NCBI GenBank assembly: GCA_902624085.1
Contig: CACNWD010000013.1
Span: forward strand, 1-34,483
Origin: an uncultured Prochlorococcus sp.
Lineage (GTDB): Bacteria; Cyanobacteriota; Cyanobacteriia; PCC-6307; Cyanobiaceae
Direction of reading: 5' to 3'
DNA length: 34,483 nucleotides
In this document: positions 29,919 to 34,274 of the stretch, piece after piece
How the letters are laid out: each line of letters starts with the position of its first letter
Position numbering within the stretch: position 1 is the first letter of the stretch
The notes under the pieces: model-generated
Database searches by the model: none
The model's input: the letters and a program-made list of their open reading frames with translations, nothing else
Told to the model about the DNA's origin: nothing
Program-made: the position numbers and the translations under genes

Positions 29919-30443
29919 ATGAAGCACACATTGTCAGTTTTAGTAGAAGATGAATCAGGAGCTTTAAGCAGAATCTCCGGATTATTTGCTAGAAGAGGAT
30001 TTAATATCGATAGTCTGGCTGTAGGGCCTGCAGAAACCAGAGGAATATCAAGATTAACAATGGTAGTCGAAGGAGACGATCAGACTTTACAGCAAATGAC
30101 CAAACAACTGAATAAATTATTTAATGTTCTTGGAGTCGCAGATCTATCAAACCTTGCCGCAGTAGAAAGAGAACTAATGTTACTAAAAGTATCAAGTAAA
30201 GAAGAGACAAGAGGTAAAATTCTTGAACTTGTTCAAGTTTTCAGAGCAAAAGTAGTAGATGTATCAGATATCGCTCTTACCCTTGAAGTAGTGGGAGACC
30301 CAGGGAAATTAGTTGCTTTAGAAAAATTACTCGAACCATATGGGATTTTGGAGATTGCAAGAACGGGGAAAATAGCATTAAAAAGATCATCAGGAGTTAA
30401 TACTGAAATGCTAAAGATTAATAAATATAGTTTTGATATTTAA
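29919..30443 (+). CDS. ilvH: Acetolactate synthase small (regulatory) subunit
   Basis: Regulatory partner of the IlvB catalytic subunit in branched-chain amino-acid synthesis. The N-terminal ACT domain is evident in [20 protein letters not shown] and [15 protein letters not shown], where valine feedback sites lie in the family. The second domain contains [20 protein letters not shown] and the C-terminal [15 protein letters not shown]. At 174 residues it is standard length. It is downstream of the hydrolase by 6 bases and tail-to-tail with the cyclophilin-like gene, overlapping it by 4 bases. Confidence 0.96.
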
Positions 30444-31090
30444 TTAAAAACAATTTTTTTTATCAAATCATTTTTATCAATTTGATCTAAAAGTTCTGAA
30501 CCACTGATTACTCTTCCAAAAATAGAGTACCTACCATCAAACTCTGGCAGATTGTTTAATGAGAAAAAGAATTCAGTCGATGATGATCTGGATTCATTTA
30601 TCTTTACCATAGATATCGATCCTTTTTCAAACTTATGTAGTAATTTTCCTATCTCCAGAGGATTTATTATAGAAGTCTCATAAATTAGTTCTTCGTTATT
30701 TAATTTAATTTCAAGAGGAATTGAAGCAAAATTCTCTACATCCCTAATATTCATTTGTCCGAAATCATTGAATTTATTTATACCGTTGTGGATTAATTTA
30801 TTATTTGAATAATTTATTATTTTATAGAAATTTTTGTTTACATAAACATTACTTTTTACTTTTGATATAAAGTTCGCCACTGTCACTGGGTGTGATTCTG
30901 CAAATAATTCGATTTTTATTATCCCTCTAGAAGTATAAAAAACAATTATATTCTCTTTAATATCACAATCAAGAGTAAGTTTTTCGCAATAATATTGGGT
31001 GTTTTCTACATTTTTATAACCGCAGCAATTTATCAAAAATAAAAAAACAACACATAAAAGATTACAGGAAAATTTTCGTATTAGATCTAT
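30440..31090 (-). CDS. Cyclophilin-like peptidyl-prolyl isomerase, probable lipoprotein with unusual start
   Basis: Cyclophilin-type fold: [26 protein letters not shown] opens the domain, then [27 protein letters not shown] and [21 protein letters not shown]. The motif lacks the usual FHR with an active-site arginine (FYKIINY here), so isomerase activity is uncertain. The first standard start, TTG at 31036, gives 198 residues and begins with CC at positions 4-5. The frame stays open upstream to 31112, and the codons from 31090 or 31081 encode a plausible lipoprotein signal ([19 protein letters not shown]). Only ATA codons are available there as starts. The coordinates given use the ATA at 31090, overlapping the ycf4 stop. 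Confidence 0.7.
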
Positions 31091-31644
31091 TTTATTCCCT
31101 CCAGATTTACACTAAGAAACTTCGCTAACCTCGCACCCTCTTCCTCTACTTCTAAAAGGGGTTTTAAATCCCCAGCACTACTGAGGGGGAGAATCTTTCT
31201 TCTTCCCTTTAGAACTAGCCCAATCCTTCTTCGTGGATTAAAACCTTCACTAATGTCTAATTTTACTGATTTAATTTCATCAAAATTTATATTGACATCA
31301 ATATCTTTGAATAAACCTTTTCTTTTAATTAAAACCTTTTTTGAACTCTTATCAAAACTATTAAAACCGGATCCAAAATTAATAAAGACCATATACCAAA
31401 GATATAGATTTAACAAATTTGCGATAACACCATACGCCCCCATTATTAAACCTTGAGGGACAAATAATAAGGCTGAAGGATTCCCAAGAGGCAAAAAGTC
31501 TTTGCCAGTGTAACTTGATATTGATGCGAGAATAAATCCAACTCCGCCTATCGTTAACATCCCACCCACAATATAATTAGAGAGTTTTCTTGAACCATTT
31601 ATTTTTTGCTCAATTCTTGATAGAGAAGAAAAATCTTTATTCAT
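31087..31644 (-). CDS. ycf4: Photosystem I assembly protein Ycf4
   Basis: Thylakoid membrane protein acting as a scaffold in assembly of photosystem I, 185 residues. Two membrane helices are visible in the first 100 residues (VGGMLTIGGVGFILASI and PQGLIMGAYGVIANLLNLYL), separated by the conserved LPLGNP loop. The hydrophilic C-terminal half has the family patterns DEIKSVKLDISEGFNPRR and [13 protein letters not shown]. In many algae and cyanobacteria ycf4 sits near psbD/psbC or other photosystem genes. Here it is divergent from psbD across a 187-base spacer. Confidence 0.95.
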   Translation of the reverse strand: MNKDFSSLSRIEQKINGSRKLSNYIVGGMLTIGGVGFILASISSYTGKDFLPLGNPSALLFVPQGLIMGAYGVIANLLNLYLWYMVFINFGSGFNSFDKSSKKVLIKRKGLFKDIDVNINFDEIKSVKLDISEGFNPRRRIGLVLKGRRKILPLSSAGDLKPLLEVEEEGARLAKFLSVNLEGIK

Positions 31645-31831: not shown

Positions 31832-32908
31832 ATGACGATCGCCGTTGGAAGCGCACCACAAAGAGGATGGTTTGACGTCCTCGATGACTGGTTAAAGCGC
31901 GACCGGTTTGTATTTATTGGTTGGTCCGGATTATTGCTTCTACCATGTGCATTTTTATCAATTGGTGGATGGTTTACCGGAACAACATTTGTAACCTCTT
32001 GGTACACACATGGAGTAGCAAGCTCTTACCTTGAAGGTTGTAATTTCTTAACAGCAGCTGTTAGTACCCCTGGAGATGCCATGGGTCACAGTCTTTTGTT
32101 CTTGTGGGGTCCTGAAGCCCAAGGTAGTTTTGTTAGATGGCTACAACTTGGAGGTCTTTGGAACTTCGTTGCATTACATGGAGTATTTGGTCTTATAGGC
32201 TTTATGCTTCGTCAGTTTGAAATCGCAGGTCTTGTTGGTATTAGACCTTACAACGCATTGGCATTTTCAGCTGTAATTGCTGTTTTCACAAGTATTTTTC
32301 TTATTTATCCATTAGGACAGCATAGCTGGTTCTTTGCACCTTCATTTGGTGTAGCTGCTATTTTCCGTTACATCTTATTTATTCAAGGTTTCCACAACAT
32401 TACACTTAATCCTTTTCACATGATGGGTGTAGCAGGAATTCTTGGTGGTGCTTTATTATGTGCTATTCATGGAGCAACCGTACAAAATACTCTTTACGAA
32501 GATTCAAGTATTTATACAGATGGAAAAGTTCAAAGTACTACTTTTAGAGCTTTTGATCCCACCCAAGAAGAAGAAACCTATTCAATGATCACAGCGAATA
32601 GATTTTGGAGCCAGATTTTCGGTATCGCTTTCTCTAATAAGCGTTTCCTTCACTTCTTAATGTTGTTTGTTCCCGTTATGGGAATGTGGACTTCATCAAT
32701 TGGTATTGTTGGACTTGCACTTAATTTAAGAGCTTATGATTTTGTAAGCCAAGAAATCCGTGCAGCAGAAGATCCAGAGTTTGAAACTTTCTATACAAAA
32801 AATATACTTTTGAACGAAGGTATGAGAGCATGGATGTCATCTGTGGATCAGCCACACGAAAACTTTGTATTCCCTGAGGAGGTTCTTCCACGTGGAAACG
32901 CCCTTTAA
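31832..32908 (+). CDS. psbD: Photosystem II D2 protein
   Basis: Reaction-centre subunit of photosystem II, binding with D1 the special-pair chlorophylls, pheophytin, QA and the non-heme iron. The 358 residues include five membrane helices, H196 as special-pair ligand, and H213 and H274 as iron ligands (corresponding to H197, H214 and H268 of standard D2). The shift shows a gap of one residue early and an insertion of about seven residues near residues 224-235 ([16 protein letters not shown]). Standard D2 is about 352 residues. Codon use is more GC-rich than neighbours, as in highly expressed genes. It overlaps psbC at its 3' end. Confidence 0.98.
32876..32882 (+). promoter_or_regulatory. Ribosome-binding site for psbC inside psbD
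   Basis: GAGGAGG lies inside the psbD coding region, nine bases before the GTG at 32892. It is the strongest Shine-Dalgarno match I noticed in the window and decides the psbC start. The conserved C-terminal end of D2 ([11 protein letters not shown]) and the start of CP43 are encoded in overlapping frames here, as in plastids and other cyanobacteria. Confidence 0.8.
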
Positions 32909-34274
32909 TAATTTACTTAGAGCTCCTAACCAGAGTATTGAAGAAACTGGTTATGCTTGGTATGTGGGTAACGCCAGATTAATTAATTTATCTGGTCGTT
33001 TACTTGGAGCTCACATTGCTCACTCTGGCCTAATTGTATTTTGGGCCGGTGCAATGATGTTATTCGAAGTTAATCACTTCACCTTTGATAAGCCTATGTG
33101 GGAGCAAGGCCTAATATGCATGCCTCATGTAGCCATGTTTGGCTATGGAATTGGTCCTGGTGGTGAAGTTACCGATATTATGCCTTTCTTCCAAGCAGGA
33201 GTTGTTCATTTAATTGCTTCAGCTGTTCTCGGATTTGGAGGAATTTATCATTCTTTAGCTGGACCTGAAAAGCTTGAGCAAGACTTTCCATTCTTCTCAA
33301 CTGACTGGAGAGACAAAAATCAAATGACAAATATCCTTGGATATCATCTGATTGTTCTTGGTGTAGGTGCTCTGGCTTGGTCTCTAAACTGGTGCTTCAT
33401 TGGAGGGGCTTATGACACTTGGGCCCCCGGTGGTGGAGAAGTTAGGCTAATTAACCCAACTTTAGATCCACGCATCATTCTTGGTTATCTTTTTAGATCT
33501 CCTTGGGGTGGTTCTGGTTCCATTATCGGTGTTAACTCCATGGAAGACATTGTTGGTGGACACGTTTATGTAGGCGTGACAGCAATAATCGGTGGAATAT
33601 TCCATATCTTTACCGAACCTTTCGGATGGGCTAGAAGAGCATTTATTTGGAACGGAGAAGGTTTACTAAGCTATGCTTTGGGCGGAATTTGTGTTGCAAG
33701 TTTTATTGCTTCAACATTTATTTGGTTCAATAATACTGCTTATCCATCAGAATTCTATGGTCCTACAAATGCTGAAGCTTCACAGGCCCAGAGTTTTACT
33801 TTCCTAGTAAGAGACCAAAGAATCGGAGCTAATGTAGGTTCTACAATGGGTCCTACAGGTCTAGGTAAATATTTGATGAGATCTCCTACTGGAGAGATCA
33901 TATTTGGAGGAGAAACCATGAGATTTTGGGACTTTAGAGGCCCTTGGTTAGAGCCACTTAGAGGTCCTAACGGATTAAGTCTTGAAAAGATCCAAAATGA
34001 TATTCAGCCTTGGCAAGTAAGAAGAGCTGCTGAATATATGACTCATGCTCCAAATGCTTCTATCAATTCTGTTGGTGGAATTATTACAGAGCCTAATGCT
34101 GTTAATTTTGTTAACTTAAGACAATGGTTAGCTGCTGCTCAATTCTTCTTAGGCTGGTTTACTTTCATAGGACATCTATGGCATGCTGGTCGAGCAAGAG
34201 CTGCTGCTGCTGGTTTTGAAAAAGGTATCGACAGAAATGACGAGCCTGCATTAGAAATGCCTGATCTAGATTAG
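32892..34274 (+). CDS. psbC: Photosystem II CP43 core antenna protein
   Basis: Inner chlorophyll-binding antenna of PSII, 460 residues when started at GTG 32892 ([20 protein letters not shown]). The six membrane helices carry the usual conserved histidines (for example [13 protein letters not shown], and [19 protein letters not shown]). The large lumenal loop between helices 5 and 6 contains E341 and R344 in GGETMRFWD, matching E354 and R357 of the 473-residue numbering; E354 is a ligand of the Mn4CaO5 cluster. The 13-residue offset supports the chosen start. An upstream ATG at 32865 is in frame but lacks the ribosome-binding site. psbC overlaps psbD by 17 bases. Confidence 0.97.

Follow-up and report, generated by a model that had tools for sequence, protein, structure and literature searches.

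An AUA codon kept genus-wide in Prochlorococcus behind a Shine-Dalgarno site in ycf4 as the probable start of a cyclophilin-like lipoprotein gene

In one large genus of the marine cyanobacterium Prochlorococcus, whose members are among the most abundant photosynthetic cells, a gene for a cyclophilin-like lipoprotein is probably translated from an AUA codon, with a strong Shine-Dalgarno (SD) site, probable coupling to the upstream gene ycf4, a predicted exported lipoprotein as its product and a dose that is probably low or regulated; we put the probability of this reading at about 0.84. The SD site, the AUA codon, the leader behind it and the conservation of all three were read directly from the genomes, as was the lack of a usable standard start codon common to the loci. 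The genus concerned is one that we take to be high-light Prochlorococcus, with MED4, MIT9515 and MIT9215 among its members. As a whole, the picture of a genus-wide non-AUG start is well supported by sequence.

Results

The cyclophilin-like gene and its upstream neighbor ycf4

The window, that is, the whole stretch of DNA that was analyzed, comprises 34,483 nucleotides of an uncultured Prochlorococcus sp. (contig CACNWD010000013.1). On its minus strand, ycf4 (31644-31087) is followed by the cyclophilin-type gene, and the two share the following features.

31087..31644, minus strand: ycf4, the upstream gene with the SD site at its end (NCBIfam NF002712, photosystem I assembly protein Ycf4)
31097..31102, minus strand: GGAGGG SD site within the ycf4 coding sequence (79/79 loci; GAG invariant)
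31088..31090, minus strand: ATA (AUA), the putative start codon of the cyclophilin-like lipoprotein gene (ATA in 79/79 genus loci)
31087..31089, minus strand: TAG stop codon of ycf4, overlapping the ATA as ATAG (read in the window; in the genus TAA 74, TAG 5, TGA 0 of 79)
30440..31090, minus strand: gene of the cyclophilin-like lipoprotein, 216 residues long if begun at ATA (Pfam PF00160, E 6.6e-24)
31022..31090, minus strand: predicted lipoprotein leader with basic n-region, hydrophobic core and lipobox ending in CC (leader plus Cys in frame in 78/79)
31034..31036, minus strand: TTG, leucine codon in the leader core and first standard in-frame start, judged unused (8/78 loci have no ATG, GTG or TTG between the upstream stop and codon 40)

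The frame of the cyclophilin-like gene opened just past a TAG (31114-31112) and ran to a stop codon whose last base is 30440. Its leader contained neither ATG nor GTG, and TTG occurred there only in the hydrophobic core (31036-31034). The GGAGGG at 31102-31097 stood 6 nt ahead of the ATA at 31090-31088. These readings bore out an earlier note on this DNA, which had described the open frame, a basic, hydrophobic leader ending in CC, TTG 31036 as the first standard start, and ATA 31090 overlapping the TAG of ycf4 in an ATAG arrangement behind GGAGGG; that arrangement proved to be kept across the genus. The window protein matched the cyclophilin-type PPIase domain, and its nearest named matches were from the Prochlorococcus HNLC1 MAG (89%) and the Prochlorococcus MAG AH-287-O17 (78%). 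Elsewhere in the window, an antisense RNA of the IsrR family (RF01419, 141 bits) was found at 33306-33489 on the minus strand, opposite an ORF (32865-34274) that by reading resembles psbC/isiA.

The SD-ATA site is conserved across the genus

When 101 genomes of the window's genus were searched at the protein level, 88 gave a match to the cyclophilin-like protein; seven of these had only another, longer cyclophilin, and two (G037 and G063), partial at contig ends, were left out. With two loci from the nearest-match search added, 81 rows were read; L032, the same stretch as L004, and L085, a broken copy, were then excluded, leaving 79 loci. GGAGGG, a spacer of 6 nt and the near-cognate start codon ATA were present in all 79. 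The base after ATA was always A or G, the ycf4 start/stop overlap of four bases being ATAA in 74 loci and ATAG in 5. Because the same SD-ATA site and leader recur across the genus, the site cannot be put down to chance.

Of 266 genus genomes, 184 carried the exact motif with ATA; among the 87 whose completeness is 90% or more, the count was 77. A version of the motif with ATG in place of ATA was found in none of the 266. Among the 82 genomes lacking the exact ATA motif were incomplete genomes and known variants, namely the window itself, G022, G023 and G055. The window's own genome reads CTGGAGGG where the exact motif is TTGGAGGG. That ATG became ATA in this strain, which the earlier note had proposed, with a comparison of related strains as the check, is therefore refuted by ATA at every aligned genus locus and by the absence of the ATG motif. 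Sequence error, its other proposal, is refuted as well, since the ATA site occurs in many separate assemblies, including four single-contig genomes. A second ATA at 31081, once considered as an alternative start, was ATA in 2 of the 79 loci, and only the codon at 31090 is conserved.

Two copies carried a disrupted frame. In the HNLC1 MAG (L033), at 89% identity the nearest relative of those whose loci were retrieved, the SD site and ATA were intact, and the leader was one base shorter than that of the window, which breaks the frame; it is possible that this frameshift is a sequence error, the record being a MAG. In L085 (G096:C18) the cyclophilin gene was broken and contained two TAA stops, and the SD-ATA site was still present upstream. 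Disruption of the upstream frame in relatives had been named beforehand as a sign against a conserved signal peptide, and it was met with in these two copies only.

The leader has lipoprotein features and varies as coding sequence

Leader counts were made on 78 loci, the frameshifted L033 having been dropped from the 79. In all 78, an in-frame leader followed the ATA, with 19-22 residues before the Cys by rule, and the lipoboxes included VQAC, ITGC and LINC. Residues 2-9 of the leader held 2 to 4 K/R in 79/79 loci. The leader thus presented the n-region, core and lipobox Cys of a lipoprotein of the Sec signal peptidase II type. The counting rule picked the first Cys in the window's clade; alignment with relatives (LINGC in L004) favors the second, and the lipidated residue of the window protein is most likely the second of the CC pair, encoded at 31024-31022. 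The product is accordingly read as a predicted lipoprotein with a cyclophilin-like domain that would be exported across the membrane, and the conserved lipobox leader supports the view of the earlier note that the location of the protein depends on which start is the true one.

Standard start codons were sought over the same region. None that would leave at least 15 residues before the Cys was present in 77 of 78 loci, the exception being L046, with a TTG; by this measure, those 77 loci had no usable standard start. Between the upstream stop and codon 40, neither ATG nor GTG occurred in 66 of the 78 loci, and 8 had no ATG, GTG or TTG. Furthermore, in the 57 loci of equal leader length, variation at the three codon positions was 0.185/0.131/0.226 in the leader versus 0.183/0.132/0.233 in the mature part. 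This similarity between leader and mature part is as expected of translated sequence.

The SD site is constrained within ycf4

The SD site occupies the final codons of ycf4, Leu-Glu-Gly. Over 123 conserved degenerate columns of ycf4, a single codon was invariant, the GAG of GGAGGG (79/79), although GAG accounts for 25% of the Glu codons of ycf4. The Leu codon ahead of this GAG always had G as its third base (TTG 77, CTG 2). The last ycf4 codon supplies through its third base the A of ATA. This base was A in every locus (AAA 78, AGA 1), which is a weaker sign of constraint, AAG making up 12% of ycf4 Lys codons. We conclude that the SD site in the ycf4 end is under selection, as judged from this codon usage.

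A stretch assigned by motif as the 16S 3' end, GGATCACCTCCT, gave an intact anti-SD in two related genomes. To set a background, positions -15 to -4 were inspected for 474 starts of the related genome G015 that agreed with a second genome. Any of three SD-like 4-mers was found at 23 of them, GGAG at 5 and GGAGG at 0, indicating that a strong SD is exceptional in G015. The strong, well-spaced and constrained SD associated with the non-AUG start class was found at the cyclophilin-like gene.

Sister genera carry standard starts and mostly have the catalytic arginine

Sixty outgroup loci of the same family were read. By rule, a standard start preceded the lipobox in 59 of them, 14 to 45 residues ahead, and the start types were ATG in 41, GTG in 6 and TTG only in 12, some of which may be plain leucines. 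In the remaining locus, L133, the rule took the wrong Cys, and reading gave an ATG start. One genus, g56 (L146-L173), was considered as a second genus without a standard start and was rejected: a TTG within the ycf4 end was common to 25/25 distinct loci, with AGAGG just upstream of it in 24, and the start of the g56 gene is thus an ordinary one.

In a 51-row tree, the 17 AUA copies that were sampled lay to one side of a branch supported at 100/100. This branch is long: on the genus side, 1.69 changes per column separate it from the midpoint root, versus 0.61 on the other side. The protein itself also differs at the active site. Cyclophilins have a catalytic Arg, contained in the outgroup motif FHRV or FNRV; the corresponding motif in the window genus is FYK, with Lys in 79/79 loci, whereas 55 of the outgroup loci had Arg and 1 had Lys, the motif not being found in the other 4, and g56 had Arg in 25/25. 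The replacement of Arg by Lys at the catalytic site suggests that isomerase activity of the genus cyclophilin may be lost or altered. Both the start-codon change and the Arg-to-Lys change fall in the same lineage, along the long stem branch.

Alternative explanations

Initiation at the internal TTG 31036 or at another standard codon would leave the leader unmade and the protein cytosolic. TTG is legal in table 11, it is the first such codon in frame at the window locus, and many relatives too have TTG codons in the leader core. This explanation fails, however, because no such start is common to the loci, as the counts to codon 40 given above make plain; the leader moreover evolves as coding sequence with its lipobox kept in every in-frame locus, and the constraint on the SD is located at the ATA and not at the TTG. 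We hold an internal start to be very improbable. A programmed -1 frameshift at the ycf4 end, fusing Ycf4 to the cyclophilin lipoprotein, deserves slightly less credit still. The cyclophilin-like frame is indeed -1 relative to ycf4, and an A4 run precedes the ycf4 stop in 77/79 loci with an SD-like site upstream, but a slippery XXXYYYZ heptamer was present in 24/79 loci only, and for want of a conserved heptamer the frameshift fails. The two loci without the A4 run still keep the SD and ATA, the SD spacing fits initiation, and outgroups have their own standard starts. Least probable of these is a decaying pseudogene that has lost its ATG and in which the leader is a relic. Such decay would agree with the long branch to the genus, with the replaced catalytic Arg and with the broken frames of L033 and L085; it is contradicted by a frame open in 78/79 loci under coding-type constraint, by the 42-54% identity to the window protein retained in most distant members and by many invariant residues, and by the SD constrained in ycf4.

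A further explanation accepts that AUA is used and differs in why it is kept: the codon may simply work well enough and be linked to the ycf4 stop, with no advantage in low expression. We consider this a possibility to be taken seriously, if somewhat doubtful. The T and A of ATA double as bases of the ycf4 stop, and TGA is uncommon in the genus, making up 120 of 824 stops in the compared ORF pairs and 0 of 78 as the stop of the cyclophilin-like gene itself. Given that TGA is uncommon and that the T and final A of ATA also serve the ycf4 stop, the absence of ATG is in part what one would expect and is a weaker proof of selection for AUA than it looks. Nevertheless, ATA to ATG would be a single step in the 74 TAA loci and was never observed, stops reading ATGA do exist in the compared genus genomes (40/824, a count of stop context only and not of gene starts), and among the 60 outgroup loci ycf4 ends in TGA in 25 of the 39 with a stop found.

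Other candidate non-AUG starts in the genus

Over about 800 kb each of two genus genomes, 824 ORF pairs were compared (355 of them in the earlier half of the comparison), some of which, for example ORFs over rRNA, are not genes. The ortholog of the window gene topped both lists of ORFs with conserved protein above any standard start, and of 53 candidates it was the only one in which a near-cognate codon, suitably spaced from an SD, occupied one shared alignment position in the two genomes.

Another candidate was a small exported protein (L195:11483-11845, that is, G015:C1:951483-951845; L288-L317), without a Pfam or NCBIfam match. In the best 30 of 89 matching genomes, its start was read as ATT in 26, ATC in 1 and GTT in 2, with none readable in 1, and AAGGAG or a similar sequence preceded it in most cases; in the stretch read, ATG occurred in 0 of these best 30 and GTG or TTG somewhere in 7. 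The copy in the window's genome (L358) had ATT with only a weak GGA upstream. This pattern shows what we read as a second genus gene with a conserved AUU start, and it suggests that the cyclophilin lipoprotein is not the sole non-AUG case in the genus.

ScpB (L228-L257; L191:11123-11653) was often without ATG, GTG or TTG before its domain. A position common to the 29 loci read was ATA in 28 and ATT in 1, and no SD was seen at this near-cognate codon in those 29. A standard start ahead of the conserved part was likewise lacking, in one or both of the compared genomes, for ScpA, CobS, a DNA glycosylase (these three named by reading), a Mem_trans permease (L258-L287) and one further ORF. For these ORFs and ScpB in G015/G041, no common SD was found. 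The infC type, autoregulated through IF3, was rejected as a class for the window gene, which is a cyclophilin; infC itself (L174-L187) starts with ATG directly behind TGA in 14/14 genomes, 9 of them in the window genus, so that the usual non-AUG autoregulation by IF3 seems to be absent.

Discussion

In the favored reading, AUA 31090 would be decoded as fMet. The GGAGGG in the end of ycf4 would pair with the anti-SD of 16S rRNA and so place the AUA in the ribosomal P site. A ribosome ending ycf4, held by this pairing, probably restarts on the AUA without leaving, and a free 30S subunit could also bind as an alternative entry. Since AUA is a poor match to the initiator tRNA, the yield should be low, and the conserved weak start would then probably set a low or regulated dose. 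The earlier note had named translational coupling as one way in which ATA might be used. That proposal survives, in that the SD and the ATA/stop overlap proved to be conserved; coupling itself, initiation at AUA, lipidation, and the idea that the start is weak in order to keep the dose low are what we infer.

Start finders limited to ATG, GTG and TTG would give such a gene a wrong start or lose the protein together with its export signal. Moreover, an SD written into another gene under synonymous constraint offers a natural test of why weak starts persist, and the case bears on what use a translation system poor in SD sites makes of them. We suggest tentatively, and with more doubt than confidence, that the genus keeps a few AUA/AUU weak-start genes with strong SD sites as a form of translational dose control, and that in the cyclophilin the switch was accompanied by a new role and the loss of the catalytic residue. 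Such a set would include the cyclophilin lipoprotein and the small exported protein, and perhaps ScpB, ScpA, CobS and the permease. If it exists, SD pairing would replace AUG in a setting where genes seldom carry SD sites.

One close counterpart is the cyclophilin-type lipoprotein of the sister genera, which has the same leader type and domain and lies behind the ycf4 end in the loci read; it has a standard start and the catalytic Arg, whereas the window genus has AUA and Lys. Four-base overlaps of the ATGA type, known to go with translational coupling, have their SD within the gene upstream. The cyclophilin-like gene shares with them the stop/start bases and an SD in the upstream gene, the overlap here being ATAA or ATAG. 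Initiation has reportedly been seen from all 64 codons in one study of E. coli.

Among the papers listed in our literature searches, at the level of titles and the opening of abstracts, none reported a non-AUG start in Prochlorococcus or other cyanobacteria, and conserved AUA/AUU starts are already known elsewhere. In Borrelia, the AUU start of pncA (BBE22) was shown by experiment, and as in our case a search for the usual starts yields a truncated protein; unlike the cyclophilin gene, pncA is a plasmid gene for an enzyme, and the available text describes no overlap with an upstream stop (PMC13398362). Also close are ccpN of S. aureus and B. subtilis and infC and cvfC1 of S. aureus, which have conserved AUA or AUU starts with an extended SD. 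These near-cognate starts were mapped by ribosome profiling, cvfC1 and ccpN were tested with reporters, and in S. aureus output was about 10% of that from AUG, rising for ccpN to as much as 30% in rich medium (PMC13009471). As described there, these genes share with the cyclophilin gene a near-cognate start conserved together with a strong, properly spaced SD. They differ from it in that the SD of the cyclophilin gene lies within the upstream gene and its start overlaps the upstream stop, in that this start is predicted from sequence, and in that the product would be a cyclophilin-like lipoprotein destined for export, encoded in a genome where SD sites are few.
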